From contig NZ_AULM01000002.1 of NCBI RefSeq assembly GCF_000422285.1, positions 310,001 through 374,000 of the forward strand: a DNA stretch of 64,000 bases, given 5' to 3'. Source of the stretch: Desulfatiglans anilini DSM 4660. GTDB lineage: Bacteria > Desulfobacterota > DSM-4660 > Desulfatiglandales > Desulfatiglandaceae. A program made the position numbers and the translations under genes. The notes below the pieces were generated by a model. The model did no database searches, was not told the origin of the DNA, and was given only the letters and a program-made list of their open reading frames with translations. Shown here one piece after another: positions 43,929-63,928 of this stretch (the stretch's first letter is position 1; each line of letters begins with the position of its first letter).

Positions 43929-44882
43929 TCATGCTGCTCCTGGAGCCACATTGACCCAGTGCTGCATCCAGTCCTCGATGTCCATCACCTGTTGGGATTT
44001 GATATGCCGTCTTTGCTCACCGCACCGAATGACCACGTCATCAAGAATCGACGATAAAACCTCGGGGCGACCTTTCACATAGGCCATAAATCTCCCCGCG
44101 AAATCCCGGCCGCCATGAAGATATGCCGCGATGCAGCGGTTTCGCACCCAATCAGTGTGGTTCCACCTGTATCCCCTTTTTTCCGCGTAGTGGTAGAGCG
44201 GCGGGCCCGGTATGATGTTGATGTGGTAACCGAGCACGGCCAGGCAGAAGTTCAGGAAATTCTCCCCGCCCCCGTAAATCCCCAGCTCCGCCGGCCAGCC
44301 CCCAAGCCGGTCAACCAGGATTTCGCGCGTGATCATCACTCCGCATGTGCTCATGCAGGGCACCCGGTACGGCTTTTCCGCCGGCCGGTAGCGGCTGAAG
44401 GAATAATGGGCAACGCCCTTTTCCGCATCGGCAACCAGTTTGTAGATCAATTCCCGGCCCGTCCGCTCGAGCATGTAGGAAAGGGGCAGATGCAGGGTTC
44501 CGTGAAGTGCCTCGTGGTGCGCCTCGTAATATCGGTACATCCCCACCAAAGCTCCTTGGCTCAAGATGCAGTGCCCGTCGCAGAAGAACAAAAAAGGCGC
44601 GTCGGTAGCCCGCACGGCCGCCATTTTGGCGTTCCAGTGGGACAGCTTGTCCGAATAAGATAGACAGGTTACCCTCTCTTGAATCCGTGCGATCTCGGCC
44701 ATATACTGGCCGCCTTTATCCGCCGGCCGGCCCTGGGCAGCGACCTCCTGGCAGTAGTTGTCAACGGCAATGATCTTGTAGTCGATCCCAGACCCATTGA
44801 GCTCACACATGAGGTTTTGGACTGTGAAGGCGATCTGCGGGTACTCGTTGACAAATGGTATGACGATGGCCAGTTCGGTCAC
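43929..44882 (-). CDS. GT-A glycosyltransferase with polypeptide GalNAc-transferase-like motifs
   Basis: 317 residues. GT2-type start (LAIVIPFVNEYPQIAFTVQNLM). The metal-binding triplet is D-G-H at 102-104 in FFCDGHCILSQGAL. DxH, rather than DxD, is the hallmark of the animal polypeptide GalNAc-transferases (GT27) that start O-glycosylation on Ser/Thr. A second match is GGWPAELGIYGGGENFL (GGGEN at 204-208), similar to the GT27 WGGEN block, followed by IIPGPPLYHYAEKRGY. Overlaps the methyltransferase gene by ATGA. Probably the first sugar-adding enzyme for the phage virion proteins with TTTT tails; acceptor not proven. Confidence 0.82.
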   Translation of the reverse strand: MTELAIVIPFVNEYPQIAFTVQNLMCELNGSGIDYKIIAVDNYCQEVAAQGRPADKGGQYMAEIARIQERVTCLSYSDKLSHWNAKMAAVRATDAPFLFFCDGHCILSQGALVGMYRYYEAHHEALHGTLHLPLSYMLERTGRELIYKLVADAEKGVAHYSFSRYRPAEKPYRVPCMSTCGVMITREILVDRLGGWPAELGIYGGGENFLNFCLAVLGYHINIIPGPPLYHYAEKRGYRWNHTDWVRNRCIAAYLHGGRDFAGRFMAYVKGRPEVLSSILDDVVIRCGEQRRHIKSQQVMDIEDWMQHWVNVAPGAA

Positions 44883-45457
44883 GGCTTTACCCCCTCCACT
44901 CGAAAATCACGGTTTCCCATGCCGTGGGTCCGACCATGCCCGACATGGACGACTCTAAAGCCGCAGGATATCATCAGCTCTGCCGCGGTTTCTTTCGTGT
45001 AGCCCCATCGGTGGCTCCATTCATCACCCCACTTGTCCACGTGGGGCTGATTTCCGTAGAGCCCGCAGATCAAGCCTGCAATGTCATTTCCGTAGTGCTG
45101 GTACATGCCGAGGATGTCCGGCCCCTCGAGGATGAGGCGCCCGCCTGGGCGAAGGAGAGCGAAGCAATCCTGCAGCATCTTCTTGGCTCCGGGCGGCCGG
45201 AAGTGCTCCACCACGTGGGAGCTCAGAATCCCGGCGAACACCCCAGCAGGGAGAATATCCGCCACGGCTTCGATGCGCCCTATGACATCGGTGCAAAGGC
45301 CGCCGCGCTGGAACTCGGTCATGTCGTAGTTGATATGGTCGGTCTTGAGCATTTCACCGGATCCCAGGTTAAGCCTCGGATCCGCGAGGCATCGCTTCTG
45401 ATCCACCGACCCGGGTGCACACCCCCTCCTGCAGACCGCACAAAGCTCGTCGTTCAA
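44879..45457 (-). CDS. SAM-dependent methyltransferase (class I)
   Basis: 192 residues from TTG 45457 (GGAAAGGGG before; the much longer upstream open frame runs antisense-like through the GT9 gene and is not protein-like). Methyltransf_11 pattern: RLNLGSGEML, YDMTEFQRGG, ILSSHVVEHFRP (motif II-like SSHVVEH) and LLRPGGRLILEGPDI (motif III). Probably methylates a sugar, as small methyltransferases beside glycosyltransferases commonly do. Its start overlaps the GT9 stop (TTGA) and its stop overlaps the next glycosyltransferase (ATGA). Confidence 0.85.
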   Translation of the reverse strand: MNDELCAVCRRGCAPGSVDQKRCLADPRLNLGSGEMLKTDHINYDMTEFQRGGLCTDVIGRIEAVADILPAGVFAGILSSHVVEHFRPPGAKKMLQDCFALLRPGGRLILEGPDILGMYQHYGNDIAGLICGLYGNQPHVDKWGDEWSHRWGYTKETAAELMISCGFRVVHVGHGRTHGMGNRDFRVEGVKP

Positions 45458-46206
45458 CGGGCACCCCTTTCCGCGGCCTCCTGGGCCGCTGCAGCCACTT
45501 GGGCCACGGTGATTTCCTTCATGCACCGGCGTTCCAGAAAATCCACGCACGGATCCGGGTTGTAGCAATAGCTGCATGGCAGCGGGTTGCAGATGTTCAC
45601 CTGCTCCTCGTATCCGTTCCAGGCCGGATCCGCAAACCCGCCGAAGACAACCACAGCGGGGACCCCGAGGGCCCGGGCAATGTGGCTGAGCCCTCCCTCG
45701 GCGCAGACCACGGCCCGGTAGGAGCCGACCACGCGCACCAGGTCGGCCACTGTTTGGCATCGCGGGATCGGCTCGAATCCAGGCATACCGGATAATTCCA
45801 GGAACCCAGGCCAAACCTTTTTGTTCCACCAATGTCCCTTGTGTCTCACCTGGACTCCGACCCGGGAACGCCAAACCTCCCGCTCCCACCCTCCGGCGAG
45901 ATAGATCTCCGGTTTGAGCTCCGGGGGCTCGAGTTCCAGCCCGTAGGCCTTCGAGACAATCTCCCAATCACTCAGGATGTGGTGCCGGGTTGGCAGAACC
46001 CGGTGAATCGGATCCGGGTAGCCGAGGAACACCCCGTCCCGCCCCTCGTTGATGCCGTCCACAAAGGGGCTGGCCGCGAGGATTGCCGGGTGATTTGTGT
46101 TTACCACCACTCTGGCTCCCGGGCAGGTCTCCTTGATCCGCCGCAGAGTCGGTGTCAAGAAGAGCAGGTCGCCGATGCCGTTGAAACTCTTGATCCTAAT
46201 TTCCAC
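45454..46206 (-). CDS. Glycosyltransferase family 9-like (heptosyltransferase fold)
   Basis: 250 residues from GTG 46206 (GGAGGAGACGC upstream, inside the end of the previous gene). GT9 features: IRIKSFNGIGDLLFLTPTLRRIKE at the start, VVVNTNHPAILAASPFVDG, and the nucleotide-sugar block VVCAEGGLSHIARALGVPAVVVFGGFADP near 200. GT9 enzymes use ADP-heptose; the host carries gmhA, so that donor should exist. A Cys-rich tail (CSYCYNPDPCVDFLERRC) is unusual and may bind metal. Part of the four-gene sugar operon. Confidence 0.87.
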   Translation of the reverse strand: MEIRIKSFNGIGDLLFLTPTLRRIKETCPGARVVVNTNHPAILAASPFVDGINEGRDGVFLGYPDPIHRVLPTRHHILSDWEIVSKAYGLELEPPELKPEIYLAGGWEREVWRSRVGVQVRHKGHWWNKKVWPGFLELSGMPGFEPIPRCQTVADLVRVVGSYRAVVCAEGGLSHIARALGVPAVVVFGGFADPAWNGYEEQVNICNPLPCSYCYNPDPCVDFLERRCMKEITVAQVAAAAQEAAERGAR

Positions 46207-47467
46207 GCGTCTCCTCCAGCATCGGCAGATATTCATTGTGATAGAGCCAATCCCAGTTGTACCGACGCCTGGCATAGTCCCTGGCGCTGATGCTCAGATC
46301 CCGGCGCATCCGGTCCAATATGTCGCGCGCGATTCCGGCGAAATACTCCTCCGGGGCAGCAATCACATATTTCTGTCGGTGGCTCCCGAAGTGATAGAAC
46401 AGGGCCCGGCCACCGGCGACCTCCCTCTGCATGGGGAGGCTCTCGTTGAGCACCAGGAGACATCCGGCCAGGGCGGCCTCGGGTACTACCAGGCCGAAGG
46501 TCTCTTCCTTCGTCGGGAAAATGAACAGGTTCGAACAGGCAAAGAGTTCCCGGACCATCCGCTTGGGGATCCCGATTTCCCATTCCGGCCGCAGCCGGCA
46601 GGTGAACGTGACCTCTTGCCCGACGATCAGCCCTTGCTCGACGGCCCAGACCTCGAGGCCCGCAATCGCTGTCTTGCGCTCCGGCGTGGTTGCGTGCTGA
46701 GCTGCGATCAGAAGACAGACGCTGGCCCCCTGGCTTTTGAGAGCCGCGAAGATTTGGATGACCTCTCGCGCCCGCTTGGCGTGCAGGCGGTCGGCGCCGG
46801 CCGGCAGGATCTGAACCACCTCGGCCTGAAGCAGCCCCGGCACCCGAGCGATCACCTCGCAGGTCTCGGGGCTGAAGTCATGAAAGGTCCGGAGGTCCTT
46901 GACATGGTGGATTGCCAGAACATCCTCGGGCCCGCCGCGGTATTTGTTGATCACGCGCGGGAGGTCCGTTTTATTTGGGTATACCACCTTGTGGTTGCCG
47001 ATCGGCTTGTACTCCCGGATCCGCCGCCAGTGCCTATCATTGGCCGGCACACTGTGGATCCAGTGGAACCACCGTACCTCCGGCAGATGCGGCCCGGCCT
47101 GCTTGACGCCCTGACCGTAGGGCACGTTCCAGCCGGTGTAGATCCAGTCATGCGTGAAGGCGGCGTCAAATCCTGACAGCGCTCCCTCAAGGAAGGCCTG
47201 GGTTCGATCGGCAAGGACCTGGCCTTCCGGCTTGAGGGGTTCCATGTGTTTGTAGTCGATCAAGGGCGCCGCAGGCACCTCCCTGCGCAAAGTGACGCCG
47301 GCCGGCAGGTCGAAGGGCCAGGCCTCCACCAGGTCGAATTTCTCTGAAACGAACAGATGAACCTCATGATCATAGGCAGCTAGCATCCGGGCCTGGTCCA
47401 GCACAATGCCTGTCAGGCTGTAGCCCGGGTTCATCCGCTTGAAGTTGGTCAGGATGGCGATCTTCAC
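46196..47467 (-). CDS. Glycosyltransferase family 4 (GT-B)
   Basis: 423 residues from GTG 47467 (GGGGGTG upstream; overlaps the previous stop as GTGA). GT-B fold with KIAILTNFKRMNPGYSLTGI at the start and the C-terminal donor-binding part VVQILPAGADRLHAKRAREVIQIF and LFIFPTKEETFGLVVPEAALAGC (E-x7-E motif). The end WDWLYHNEYLPMLEETR is typical of GT4. First gene of the GT4-GT9-methyltransferase-GT operon at the end of the phage structural block. Confidence 0.9.
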   Translation of the reverse strand: MKIAILTNFKRMNPGYSLTGIVLDQARMLAAYDHEVHLFVSEKFDLVEAWPFDLPAGVTLRREVPAAPLIDYKHMEPLKPEGQVLADRTQAFLEGALSGFDAAFTHDWIYTGWNVPYGQGVKQAGPHLPEVRWFHWIHSVPANDRHWRRIREYKPIGNHKVVYPNKTDLPRVINKYRGGPEDVLAIHHVKDLRTFHDFSPETCEVIARVPGLLQAEVVQILPAGADRLHAKRAREVIQIFAALKSQGASVCLLIAAQHATTPERKTAIAGLEVWAVEQGLIVGQEVTFTCRLRPEWEIGIPKRMVRELFACSNLFIFPTKEETFGLVVPEAALAGCLLVLNESLPMQREVAGGRALFYHFGSHRQKYVIAAPEEYFAGIARDILDRMRRDLSISARDYARRRYNWDWLYHNEYLPMLEETRGN

Positions 47468-47685
47468 TTCGGCACCCCCGGCACCACCGGCTTCCATTTC
47501 CCGGATCCGGCATGATAGGCCAGGATATCCCCGTCAGCCCGGCCGGATATATCGACGTCCAGGAGAGCGCTCAGATAGAGCAGCGTGTTGTTGAGCCTTT
47601 CCCAGTTGCCGTTATGATGCTCCAGCCAGTCAGTATCGCCGTACTCGGTTGTTTTCAGCCCGCTCGGGCTCAAGGTCGTCGCCAT
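47464..47685 (-). CDS. Small tail-associated protein, paralogue 1 of 3
   Basis: 73 residues from ATG 47685 (AGGAGAGATTGC upstream). Contains NGNWERLNNTLLYLSALLDVD, a short RADGDIL segment and SGKWKPV, the module also present in the next two genes. Such modules are common at the ends of phage tail-fibre proteins. No acidic Thr tail in this copy. Function unknown; probably a virion or fibre-assembly component. Confidence 0.68.
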   Translation of the reverse strand: MATTLSPSGLKTTEYGDTDWLEHHNGNWERLNNTLLYLSALLDVDISGRADGDILAYHAGSGKWKPVVPGVPK

Positions 47686-47695
47686 GCAATCTCTC

Positions 47696-47902
47696 CTATA
47701 AAACGACCGCTTCCCATTTTGCGGATTCGGAATTCCAGCGCAGCACGGCGCCATCGGCAAGGCTGGTCGCGTCGACATCCAGCAAGGCGCTGATTTTGAG
47801 CAGTTTCTGATTCAGCAGATCCACGTTTTTATTGTAGATCGCCACCCAGTAAGGCTGCCCGTAATCGGCGGTTTCAAGCTTTGTGGCGGCCAAGATCGTC
47901 AT
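47696..47902 (-). CDS. Small tail-associated protein, paralogue 2 of 3
   Basis: 68 residues. Same module as its neighbours: NVDLLNQKLLKISALLDVD, LADGAVLRWN, SAKWEAV. The middle copy of a tandem triplet and the shortest version; ends directly after the KW motif, with no acidic Thr tail. Confidence 0.68.
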   Translation of the reverse strand: MTILAATKLETADYGQPYWVAIYNKNVDLLNQKLLKISALLDVDATSLADGAVLRWNSESAKWEAVVL

Positions 47903-47911
47903 GCTGTGCCT

Positions 47912-48151
47912 CTAAGTTGTTGTGGTTTCCTCTTCGAAGATATCGTCCCAAGGCGTTGCCACCCATTTCTGCGAGCTGGCATTCCACACCAGGACAGCCC
48001 CATCCTCGAGCGTGCTCAGATCCGCATCGAGCATCCCGGAGATCTTAAGCAGGGCATCGTTCAGCTTCCGCATGTTGTCACTCAGGATCTGATTCCAGCC
48101 CTGAGCATTCAATGTCAGCTTCTCCAGTTCTGTCGGCATCACTTTGGGCAT
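47912..48151 (-). CDS. Small tail-associated protein, paralogue 3 of 3, with EEETTTT tail
   Basis: 79 residues. Module NMRKLNDALLKISGMLDAD, LEDGAVLVWN, QKWVAT as in the two following genes, then DDIFEEETTTT as the very last residues. The tail is the shortest instance of the acidic/threonine tag seen on four larger virion proteins. Lies directly downstream of the tail hub gene. Confidence 0.72.
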   Translation of the reverse strand: MPKVMPTELEKLTLNAQGWNQILSDNMRKLNDALLKISGMLDADLSTLEDGAVLVWNASSQKWVATPWDDIFEEETTTT

Positions 48152-54692: not shown

Positions 54693-55706
54693 TTATTCTC
54701 CTGATGTGGTGGTTTCCTCTTCAGTGGTGGTCGTCTCTTCCTCGGTCGTCGTGGTTGCATCTTCGGTGGTTGTTGTTTCCTCGGTCTCTTCCTGAACAGC
54801 CATGAACGAGTAGTTGTACGTCTCGGCCGCTTGCTGGAAGATCCTGAAATCGCCTTCCGCCGCTTCGTATAAATCCTCCGATTGCATGCTCAGCATGCGC
54901 GGCGCGTAGACCCCCTGGAGGCTCATCAGAAGATCGCCGTCGGCCAGGACATAACACGGCAAGAGCAGCCCCTTGCCATTCGGGGCAACATCGATGGCCC
55001 TGTTGTCCGAGTCTCCCTGCATGGGGATCACTCTGGGCGTGGAGCCCGTCCTGAAGAGGTTACCGGGCGATACCACAAAGAAGGATCCCGCGATGGGTCT
55101 CACAGGCCCATAACCGCCGGCTTGATAGCTTCTGTTCCCAAACCAGGATCCGGCGACCAGCAGAGGGAACGGGTATTCGGAGGGGCTCCCCAAGCGGTAG
55201 CCCAGCCCAAGGTAACAGGCAAAATACGAGGACCCCACCTTGACGATCACCACGATCCGTTCCTTGGTGGAGTAGATCCAGTAGTACATGGTGGAATCGA
55301 AGAGCTGCAGGATCGGTAGGCCCGAGGTCGTTCCGCTCGCCCAGTGCTTCCAGGTGGAATCGTAGGAGGTGAATCCGGTGTCGTTCTTGTTCCCGGCCCA
55401 GGAAGAGGGAACATCCAGATACCCGTTCAGGTCCCAGCCCCAGGCGTTTCCAGCCACGTATTTCCACTCCCGGATCCCGATCAGGATCTGCTCGTTGCCG
55501 GATAGCCCGGTGTTTTTGAGGATCACCTCACGAAGATTGTCCTCGGGGAAGGCATCGGTTATCCCGTCTGATCCCTTGGAGTTCTGGTCGAGTTTCAGGG
55601 TCCAGTCCCGGCCGGGGCCCGCATCGGCGCAACAAAAATCGATCAAGGCCTGCAGCAGGCCGTTTGCGCCTGAAAAAGCACTGCAGCTTCCACTGGTTTG
55701 AGGCAT
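54693..55706 (-). CDS. Phage virion protein with long acidic/threonine C-terminal tail
   Basis: 337 residues. The body is aromatic and Gly-rich with YYWIYSTKERIVVIVKVGSSYFACYLGLG and a SGNEQILIGIREW segment. The last ~32 residues are tail: EETEETTTTEDATTTTEEE, then TTTTEEETTTSGE. The end EEETTTSGE is identical to the head decoration protein. It is separated from the body by VQE. Located beside the tape measure gene, so probably a tail-exterior protein. Confidence 0.68.
   Translation of the reverse strand: MPQTSGSCSAFSGANGLLQALIDFCCADAGPGRDWTLKLDQNSKGSDGITDAFPEDNLREVILKNTGLSGNEQILIGIREWKYVAGNAWGWDLNGYLDVPSSWAGNKNDTGFTSYDSTWKHWASGTTSGLPILQLFDSTMYYWIYSTKERIVVIVKVGSSYFACYLGLGYRLGSPSEYPFPLLVAGSWFGNRSYQAGGYGPVRPIAGSFFVVSPGNLFRTGSTPRVIPMQGDSDNRAIDVAPNGKGLLLPCYVLADGDLLMSLQGVYAPRMLSMQSEDLYEAAEGDFRIFQQAAETYNYSFMAVQEETEETTTTEDATTTTEEETTTTEEETTTSGE
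54696..54791 (-). repeat. Seven-codon repeats encoding the acidic/threonine tail of the 54693 gene
   Basis: Minus-strand reading gives four Thr runs (TTTT, TTTT, TTTT, TTTS) spaced seven codons apart by E-E/D-E or D-A variants. The period is 21 bases, with only minor codon differences (GTCGTGGT-type blocks on the plus strand). Confidence 0.75.
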
Positions 55707-59738: not shown

Positions 59739-60440
59739 TCACTCGGGTTGCGCTACATACCGCACTCCTGCTTCAAAACAGGCCCAGAAATCATTCGTCA
59801 CATACGCCACCGATCCAAACGCGAAAAACATCTTTCTCACTTGCCCATCAATGCGGTAGGCAAGGCATAGTCTTTCGGTAGCCCCACTGTAAAACAGTCC
59901 TACCGTTCCCTCTTTTGCCGTGTCTCTCCCGGTGTTATAGGTGCCCGATGACAGCATCGTCACTTCATCGTCAACATTTTGGACCTTTAATGCGATGCCT
60001 ACCGGATGAGTGAGCGCAGCACTTAACGCCTTCATCCCTATAGAAGTCGTACTACCCCCCAGGGTAGTTAACCCACCTGCAGAAGAAGCGTATCTGGAAA
60101 ACGTGAAAAATGGGTTTATTGTCGCGGCGTAGAAATCGGCTACAGCTTGACTGAGCGCAGCAACTGTGGGGCTGGTAACAATCACCGTCCCCGATGTAAT
60201 GCCGTGAGTTGCGATGTCGTCTCCAACGACTTCCTCCAGCCATTGGAAATCGCTGATTGAGTCAACGTGCGCCTTGATAAAATCCCGGTGTGTCGTTCCG
60301 TCATCGGCCACCAATCTGTGGTATAAAATTGGTATTTTGTTGCCACCTGCACTCCACACCAGCTCACCGCCGAGATAGACCGCCTCAACGGCTTTGCCGC
60401 CCAGGTATAGAGCCGCTGCATCGCTCAGGAGAGGCATCAC
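59739..60440 (-). CDS. Phage virion (tail) protein
   Basis: 233 residues. Starts LSDAAALYLGGKAVEAVYLGGELVW, a phrase common to phage structural proteins (two LYLGG repeats), then a Ser/Thr/Gly-rich domain (GGLTTLGGSTTSIGMKAL) and FFAFGSVAYVTNDFWACFEAGV. Its start overlaps the preceding gene's stop. No acidic tail. Position beside the fibre-like gene suggests a tail-exterior role. Confidence 0.6.
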   Translation of the reverse strand: MMPLLSDAAALYLGGKAVEAVYLGGELVWSAGGNKIPILYHRLVADDGTTHRDFIKAHVDSISDFQWLEEVVGDDIATHGITSGTVIVTSPTVAALSQAVADFYAATINPFFTFSRYASSAGGLTTLGGSTTSIGMKALSAALTHPVGIALKVQNVDDEVTMLSSGTYNTGRDTAKEGTVGLFYSGATERLCLAYRIDGQVRKMFFAFGSVAYVTNDFWACFEAGVRYVAQPE

Positions 60441-60838
60441 GCGCCCCCCGTCGTGGTCGTCTCATCTTCGGGCACGATCACATAGAGCTTGGCGGAGTCC
60501 GGGCCGGGCGCCAGGGCGTCGTACTCGTCTTGGGTGAGAGACACGATTTGGGAGATCGTGGCCGATGTGACCATGCCGGTGTGGGTGTGGCTTGCGGCAG
60601 CCTTTCCGGCCAGATCCTGCCCGATCTTTTGGGCACTCCAGGCCTTGTCGCCAGCCGTGCTCTCATCGTCGATCTGCGCGCCTGCAGGCGGCAAATCCGG
60701 GATCTTCACCCGCAGGGCATTTCGCTCTTCGTCAAAAACCGCGTTCAGGGCCTGTTGGGAAGACAGGAGCCCGGTCAGGCTCCCGTCCCCATCGGTCGAA
60801 AACACACGGTTCAGAATTTTCTGGATGCTATGCAGCAT
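60437..60838 (-). CDS. Phage fibre-like protein with DETTTTGGA end
   Basis: 133 residues. Contains tail-fibre type phrases: DDESTAGDKAWSAQKIGQDLA, HTHTGMVTSATISQIVSLTQDEYDALA and DSAKLYVIVPEDETTTTGGA. LTQDEYDAL...LYVIV is a common short end domain of phage fibres, normally followed by nothing. Here a single TTTT tag is added, followed by GGA rather than a full repeat. The N-terminal 35 residues are helical. Confidence 0.7.
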   Translation of the reverse strand: MLHSIQKILNRVFSTDGDGSLTGLLSSQQALNAVFDEERNALRVKIPDLPPAGAQIDDESTAGDKAWSAQKIGQDLAGKAAASHTHTGMVTSATISQIVSLTQDEYDALAPGPDSAKLYVIVPEDETTTTGGA

Positions 60839-60850
60839 GGCAGTCCTCTG

Positions 60851-61426
60851 TTACACCGTGGTCGTCGTCTCTTCCTCGGTCGTTGTGGTCTCTTCATCGT
60901 CTTGAGCATCGACGTCGAAGAATGGACTGGTGGGATGGTTGGCAACATCGGAGAGTCCTTCGCCCGCGTGCGGCAGTGTCATCCATTCTTCTCCGATCAA
61001 GGAGCCGGCGCCGTTCGGGCGCAGCTTCACCCGCCAGAAATCCCACTGGCGGTTCGGCCCTTCGGCGTTGTCGGAGATGAACCGTATCCAAACCTCACGC
61101 TGGGTGTTGGTGAGGCCGGCGATTTTGTCGCCCACAGCCGTTCCCATCAGAAACCGCTCGAGGTTCTTGGTGGCCATTTCATCCAGGCTGAAATTGAGCT
61201 TGTAGCCCTTCTGGATCGTGGTGGATTTGTCGAGGTTCTTTGCGCCGGACCGGCTGGAGTAGTGCTCTTTCTCCTCGACAGAGAGCTCCAGGCCTAACTC
61301 GGGGCAGTTGCCCACGTCGCCCAGATCGCCCTCGTCGGGTGGCGTGGCGCCGTCCCAGTCGGCCATGTACATGATGCCCTTACCGATGGTGTAGAGCTCG
61401 GTGCTCGGGCTGGTTGCAATAGGCAT
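60851..61426 (-). CDS. Major tail tube protein with acidic/threonine C-terminal tail
   Basis: 191 residues from ATG 61426 (AGAGGAGGGAC before). Begins ATSPSTELYTIGKGIMYMADWDG, with GLELSVEEKEHYSSRSG and TTIQKGYKLNFSLDEMATKNL, the tail-tube pattern of long-tailed phages. Last residues DDEETTTTEEETTTTV give two tandem TTTT units. The tail tube is present in many copies per virion, so a tagged C-terminus would repeat along the whole tail surface. Lies downstream of head-tail joining genes. Confidence 0.82.
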   Translation of the reverse strand: MPIATSPSTELYTIGKGIMYMADWDGATPPDEGDLGDVGNCPELGLELSVEEKEHYSSRSGAKNLDKSTTIQKGYKLNFSLDEMATKNLERFLMGTAVGDKIAGLTNTQREVWIRFISDNAEGPNRQWDFWRVKLRPNGAGSLIGEEWMTLPHAGEGLSDVANHPTSPFFDVDAQDDEETTTTEEETTTTV

Positions 61427-61472
61427 GGTGTCCCTCCTCTTTGCGCCCAAGGGGGCGCTCGCCATTCCTTGT

Positions 61473-63430: not shown

Positions 63431-63928
63431 TTACTCGCCAGATGTCGTCGTTTCCTCTTCCGTGGTGGTCGTCTCGTCCTCGGTTGTCGTGGTTTCCTCT
63501 TCAGTCGTGGTCGTCTCGTCCTCGGTTGTCGTGGTTTCGTCCTCGGCAGCATCGAGGATCGTCTCATCGATGACGATGCCGCGATCCTGCAGGGCCACGA
63601 TGGCCGTACGCTTCTGGGTGGCCGATATCCCATCGGGCCAAACGAGATCGGAGGCCCGGTATTTCCCCACGAAATAGGCCTGCTTTTTCTGTATGGCATC
63701 CGAATCCGCGGCGGCTTCACACAGGATGGCCCTGGCGTTGGATCCGTCCTCTGCCTGCAGCTGTTGCCATTGCCCCGAGGTCACGCTCACCATTTCGAGC
63801 ACGGTTCCGCGGGCCAGGGCCCCGGCCGATGCCTTGAGATTGATGTCGCGCTGAATACAGCCCTCGCCCGCCACAAGCTGGGAGAGTTCCGCGCTCTCGT
63901 TTACGGTGACTCCGAATGTCCCTGCCAT
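63431..63928 (-). CDS. Head decoration protein (lambda gpD-like) with five-unit acidic/threonine tail
   Basis: 165 residues. The body is a gpD-like fold: INLKASAGALARGTVLEMVS, GSNARAILCEAAADSD, KKQAYFVGKYRASDLVW. The last 37 residues are tail: EDETTTTEDETTTT, EEETTTTEDETTTT, EEETTTSGE. Decoration proteins are exposed trimers on the capsid, about 400 copies in a lambda-sized head, so the tag would cover the outside. Adjacent to the major capsid gene. Confidence 0.82.
   Translation of the reverse strand: MAGTFGVTVNESAELSQLVAGEGCIQRDINLKASAGALARGTVLEMVSVTSGQWQQLQAEDGSNARAILCEAAADSDAIQKKQAYFVGKYRASDLVWPDGISATQKRTAIVALQDRGIVIDETILDAAEDETTTTEDETTTTEEETTTTEDETTTTEEETTTSGE
63434..63544 (-). repeat. 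21-base tandem repeats encoding the EDETTTT tail of the decoration protein
   Basis: Five imperfect units, each seven codons (E-D/E-E-T-T-T-T), recognisable on the plus strand as GTCGTGGT-type Thr blocks separated by CTC[G/T]TC[C/T]TC-type acidic blocks. Codons differ between units, so the repeat is maintained at the protein level as well as by DNA. Confidence 0.8.

Follow-up and report, generated by a model that had tools for sequence, protein, structure and literature searches.

A gene in a prophage of Desulfatiglans anilini DSM 4660 raises the question of whether a phage can encode a close relative of the enzymes that initiate mucin-type glycosylation in animals and, if so, whether its acceptors would be the virion's own proteins. 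The gene lies in a 64,000-nucleotide stretch of contig NZ_AULM01000002.1 (positions 310,001 to 374,000), here called the window, and coordinates are window positions unless a record is named. The original prediction, made from the letters alone, saw in the product two motif blocks of glycosyltransferase family 27 (GT27), the polypeptide GalNAc-transferases, and proposed it as the best candidate for the initiating enzyme.

Sequence and fold of the enzyme

The minus strand of the segment is a real open reading frame, with a GTG start and a TGA stop, whereas its plus-strand translation has internal stops and is not an open frame. Both predicted motifs, DGH (residues 102–104) and GGGEN (residues 204–208), are present; they sit within DGHC (residues 102–105) and YGGGEN (residues 203–208), and the product also carries H231 and Y238. 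Because D102, H104, G205, G206, E207, H231, and Y238 are invariant in all 58 aligned family members, the motifs are, on this alignment, not due to chance. Y203 occurs in 55 and N208 in 41 of the 58. The counterpart here of the GT27 block WGGEN is Y-G-G-G-E-N, in which GGE is invariant (58/58), Tyr203 replaces the GT27 Trp, and there is one extra Gly.

With Pfam, the product matched Glycos_transf_2 alone (23.6 bits against a cut-off of 23.3). It received no PHROG assignment, and its weak PHROG matches were to GtrB-like families. Single-sequence searches returned no matches in viral and genome contigs, weak and largely plain GT2 proteins in the phylum, and GalNAc-T9 as the best of the solved structures (E = 0.025). 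Relatives were then gathered from viral contigs, and a profile was built from 11 phage proteins, with zero eukaryotic or cellular relatives in it. The best PDB matches of this phage-only profile were GalNAc-T10 (1.4e-13) and GalNAc-T9 (8e-12), then T4 and T12. In both the sequence search and the profile alignment, H231 aligned with the His of GHIFRKR in GalNAc-T9, which is the third metal ligand in established GT27 structures.

AlphaFold2 gave a pLDDT of 36 from the single sequence and a usable model once 10 relatives had been added to the alignment (pLDDT 91.2, pTM 0.91). When this model was compared with the PDB using Foldseek, the first 43 rows were all polypeptide GalNAc-transferases. In VIA-align, 29 GalNAc-T entries led with Z scores of 24.0 to 27.8 over approximately 280 of the 317 residues, and the next fold followed at 20.1. 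The remaining GT-A families scored lower in VIA-align and BFVD, and may still be distant kin of the enzyme. Sequence profiles, Foldseek, and VIA-align each placed GT27 first, which upholds the predicted kinship, and the GT27 alignments cover all three motif regions (DxH, GGE, and the His at the third metal site); the outcome set beforehand as counting against the prediction, namely a best match to a plain GT2 enzyme with DxD chemistry and nothing of GT27 around GGGEN, was not obtained. The anticipated absence of a lectin domain also holds, as the 317 residues align to the GalNAc-T catalytic domain only.

GT27 enzymes are retaining transferases that move GalNAc from UDP-GalNAc onto Ser/Thr in peptides, and a C-terminal ricin-type lectin domain is usual in animal members, if not strictly defining. 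Compared with the GT27 enzymes T2, T9, T10, T12, and Toxoplasma GalNAc-T3, the phage enzyme shares the GT-A fold throughout, the DxH site, the GGE block, the third metal-site His, and the loop Tyr, but it is soluble and phage-encoded, with 14 to 17% identity. Because of Tyr203 in place of Trp, the extra Gly, the variable Asn208, and the lack of a lectin domain and a membrane anchor, we call it, on sequence and model evidence, GT27-like and not a proven GT27 member. TarP (6h1j), a glycosyltransferase from a Staphylococcus aureus prophage whose acceptor is a glycopolymer, is likewise a phage-encoded GT-A enzyme and was the first non-GT27 structure in both the profile and the Foldseek lists. Its sequence match was confined to the N-terminal half, and its TM score in Foldseek was 0.52, against about 0.7 for the GalNAc-Ts.

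The cassette and the Thr-tagged proteins

The GT27-like gene is the last of a four-gene cassette running from 47467 to 43929, in which successive genes overlap by 4 to 11 bases (Table 1). None of the four enzymes has a 19-residue window above 1.7 on the Kyte–Doolittle scale, the signal used for membrane segments.

Table 1. Cassette genes and Thr-tagged open reading frames in the window
Feature	Coordinates	Strand	Evidence
GT27-like GT-A glycosyltransferase, 317 aa	43929..44882	-	Profile and fold searches, 58-member conservation
SAM-dependent methyltransferase, TTG start	44879..45457	-	Weak Methyltransf_23 and Methyltransf_11 matches
GT9-like (heptosyltransferase-like) glycosyltransferase	45454..46206	-	PF01075 over cut-off
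GT4-like glycosyltransferase	46196..47467	-	Sub-cut-off Glyco_trans_1_4, PHROG glycosyltransferase
79-aa protein ending EEETTTT	47912..48151	-	Tag; homologue with poly-Thr tail in L235
phrog_687 structural protein ending TTTT[acidic]3 repeats	54693..55706	-	Thr-tailed homologues in L206 and L238
Tail-protein-like ORF ending EDETTTTGGA	60437..60838	-	Weak PHROG tail match, tag
Tail tube (major tail) protein ending DEETTTTEEETTTTV	60851..61465	-	phrog_807, Thr-tailed homologues
Head decoration protein ending in five ETTTT-type units	63431..63928	-	phrog_49; poly-Thr-tailed homologue in L178

Upstream of the cassette, on the same strand, lie tail genes and then the genes for the tape measure, tail tube, major head, and head decoration proteins. 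The same contig continues past the window with terminase, MuF-like, MuB-like, and Mu transposase genes, and ends there. From this head and tail gene order and the Mu genes up to the contig end, it follows that the element is a Mu-like prophage that the end of the contig cuts short and whose right end lies close to the cassette. A search for minus-strand promoters between 42500 and 49000 gave no matches, which fits with, but does not prove, late co-transcription of the cassette with the tail genes. Three small paralogous open reading frames, one tagged and two untagged, stand in a row (47464–48151) after the large tail protein and ahead of the cassette, and their relatives elsewhere likewise include tagged and untagged copies. 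The prophage early region, beyond the window, encodes an AAA_28/NadR-like P-loop protein (L011:13003–14058).

Five open reading frames on the strand of the enzyme gene end in C-terminal acidic-TTTT units; the major head protein, the tape measure protein, and the large terminase have no such tags. At the DNA level, the tag pattern occurs six times in the window, against 0 expected, and every occurrence of a stricter pattern in the 4.67 Mb genome falls inside this prophage. All four Thr codons are used in the prophage tags, and 79 tails from related contigs contain a mean of 3.5 kinds of Thr codon, their longest identical run having a median of 2. Because the codons are mixed, the tails look maintained at the protein level, as far as codon usage tells, and nucleotide slippage, considered as an origin of the tails, is argued against by the same mixing.

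No viral contig contained the exact TTTT[DE]3TTTT pattern in a DNA search. In homologues of three tagged proteins (head decoration, phrog_687, and 79-aa), poly-Thr ends stand where the prophage has ETTTT units; most contigs with these homologues were found via the poly-Thr pattern and are thus selected for tails. Judging from these sequences, the acidic form looks peculiar to this phage, its relatives having poly-Thr or Ser/Thr tails.

Association of the gene with tails, and its proposed role

The original prediction had made much of the enzyme adjoining Thr-tagged virion proteins, and this pairing recurs well outside the window, in dozens of uncultivated phages: 34 of 56 viral loci have, no farther than about 10 kb from the gene, a Thr tail or a tract rich in Ser/Thr (at least 20 of 30 residues). 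Among control loci of similar total length picked by an arbitrary 15-mer, 3 of 120 were positive (Fisher p = 4e-18, a value that assumes independent loci, which these are not), and two of these three look, in our reading, like non-coding frames. Loci picked by a Mu-type terminase gave 0 of 37. Both controls reject a general viral background as the source of the tails. Grouping of the loci by shared non-cassette proteins yielded 12 groups, nine of which have a positive locus; the whole contig of L037 adds a tenth.

Of 12 gene-bearing contigs longer than 50 kb that were examined over all or nearly all of their length, 11 have tails or tracts, often on several proteins and up to seven per whole contig, with G458 as the exception. 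This sample was not chosen in favor of the result, because most of its members were picked for having no tract near the gene. G445, too, has the gene without tails. Tail-tube homologues are Thr-tailed in the gene-bearing contigs G443, G444, G446, G456, G461, and G534 and have no Thr tails in eight other genomes of the phylum; the enzyme itself was not found in 394 other genomes searched.

The association is weaker in the reverse direction: the enzyme is present in 3 of 29 contigs selected for genuine poly-Thr tails, the others being mostly short fragments. G485 ends shortly past its tailed genes. Among contigs with other pattern matches, 1 of 50 has the enzyme; this contig, G534, carries a full cassette along with five tails. 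The 83-kb contig G472 combines tails with a GT4-like gene and has no GT27-like gene, from which it appears that tails can occur with another enzyme set; the enzyme set may thus be swappable. By our reading of the sequences, G472 (L431:10421–15775) also has genes for a different GT-A-like enzyme, an SQD1-like epimerase, and a sulfotransferase-like protein.

Over 57 GT27-like loci, the recurring neighbors are GT4-like genes (43), a 252-aa family (29), a 376-aa family (27), methyltransferases (27), GT2 (14), hexapeptide acyltransferase-like genes (12), and epimerases (6). GT9-like homologues occur at six loci, with identities up to 57%, and a homologue of the cassette methyltransferase adjoins the GT27-like gene in L032. 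Neither the 252-aa family (L083:8570–9328) nor the 376-aa family (L063:6136–7266) has a Pfam match; both are probably unrecognized glycan enzymes. Where a contig is nearly complete, the two glycosyltransferase genes (GT4-like and GT27-like) almost always co-occur. G455 has tails and the GT27-like gene, and a GT4-like gene was not detected there.

These data make it probable that the gene belongs to a phage-encoded, mucin-like O-glycosylation module for virion surface proteins, and we consider it quite likely that the module glycosylates the Thr/Ser tails. The GT27-like enzyme would act in the host cytoplasm, using a nucleotide-donor sugar and a DxH...H metal site, and would place the sugar on threonines of the C-terminal ETTTT tags of head decoration, tail tube, and other tail proteins; ETTTTEEETTTT is a tag peptide and candidate acceptor. 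The GT4-like and GT9-like enzymes would then lengthen the glycan, and the methyltransferase would cap or modify it. If this building takes place before or during virion assembly, assembled virions would carry glycosylated tails jutting from head and tail, with a possible role in shielding or adhesion. The model builds on the GT27-like fold, the conserved metal-site residues, the restriction of tags to virion-type proteins, the packing of the cassette, and the recurrence of enzyme and tails in diverse phages, and from these we infer catalysis, acceptor, donor, order of steps, and role.

We lean toward the GT27-like rather than the GT4-like enzyme as the one that makes the first sugar–protein bond. 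Because conservation is about equal in the GT4-like partner, which could itself catalyze the first step, the GT27-like enzyme is best described as the putative initiating enzyme. The strongest rival explanation accordingly keeps the same system and reverses the order, with the GT4-like enzyme putting the first sugar on the Thr tags and the GT27-like enzyme adding a later one. Among the partners, the GT4-like gene is conserved best (43 of 57 loci); it heads the cassette directly behind the tailed gene, it accompanies tails in G472, where the GT27-like gene is missing, and GtfA, a GT4 enzyme acting on serine-rich-repeat adhesins, provides a precedent. We nevertheless consider this order unlikely, given that the solved GT27 structures matching the enzyme best are of proteins known for O-transfer to peptides, and that G455 combines tails with the GT27-like gene and no detected GT4-like gene.

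Two further explanations fit poorly. Prophage glycosyltransferases commonly modify the host surface, and the cassette could serve O-antigen or LPS conversion that excludes other phages, the Thr tails being unrelated flexible linkers or adhesive tails; the heptosyltransferase-like GT9 gene and the weak matches to GtrB-like families point that way. Serotype-conversion (gtr) clusters, however, have a membrane-bound glycosyltransferase and a GtrA flippase, and the cassette shows neither a membrane-segment signal in its four enzymes nor a flippase ORF. Its close packing after the tail genes on the late strand, the absence of a separate promoter match, and the strong tail association relative to the controls make this explanation improbable. 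We give hardly any weight to glycosylation of modified bases in the phage DNA: phage glycosyltransferases acting on hydroxymethylated DNA do exist, but the partners here are sugar and methyl tailoring enzymes, and the ORFs scanned outside the window include Mu transposase, AAA ATPases, and a MuF-like protein and no base-hydroxylation gene.

Known systems and spread of the family

O-glycosylation of virion proteins by the module proposed here would resemble two known systems. GtfA/GtfB (GT4) O-glycosylate serine-rich-repeat adhesins; they likewise modify long Ser/Thr tracts in the cytoplasm through clustered glycosyltransferases, and a GT4-like gene is present here too, but their targets are Gram-positive cell-surface adhesins, and the system has no GT27-like enzyme or virion proteins. 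A few mycobacteriophages are also reported to use phage-encoded glycosyltransferases for virion proteins: according to PMC12363180 (citing Freeman et al. 2023), those of Che8 and Corndog modify capsid and tail tube proteins. Che8 gp108–110 matched the HMM of the GT27-like family at E values of 0.03 or worse, that is, with no detectable kinship, and the Che8 capsid and tail proteins have no Thr tails of this kind. Phage-encoded virion glycosylation is thus already known, and in the open-access literature searched no account of phages pairing a GT27-like enzyme with Thr-tailed virion proteins was found, which is weak evidence of novelty.

A broader claim, that a GT27-type lineage performs mucin-type O-glycosylation in bacteria, initiating on phage poly-Thr tails and mucin-like Ser/Thr tracts, seems to us evenly balanced between right and wrong. 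Diverse phages would, by this account, have added such tails or tracts to otherwise ordinary decoration, tube, and fiber proteins. If it is true, phage “mucins” would coat virions generally, and phages would harbor near kin of the enzymes that initiate mucin glycans in animals. Apart from this claim, phage O-glycosylation becomes predictable and testable, since in dozens of phages the sequence directly shows a GT27-like enzyme together with its likely substrates, which are short, modular Thr tails on virion proteins of named kinds. The family also offers small, soluble, lectin-free GT27-like enzymes for use in bacteria and bears on the origin of mucin-type glycosylation.

The family appears close to phage-specific in the sequences searched. 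The bacterial genome contigs contained one close relative, from a Deltaproteobacteria MAG that also has Thr tails and a cassette resembling this one. A distant member (approximately 21% identity, with a DNHC site) is gp2 of the cultured Tunturiibacter phage Tunturi_4 (L002:1567–2565); its gene lies between those for terminase and portal, and the 50 kb examined contain no Thr tails. In G449, G452, and G455, the GT27-like match crosses one in-frame TGA each, which may reflect an alignment overrunning the gene end. Three records (L032, L039, and L054; 142, 224, and 277 kb) apparently represent one large phage, in which proteins of about 1,290 residues with internal Thr/Ser tracts adjoin the GT27-like gene.
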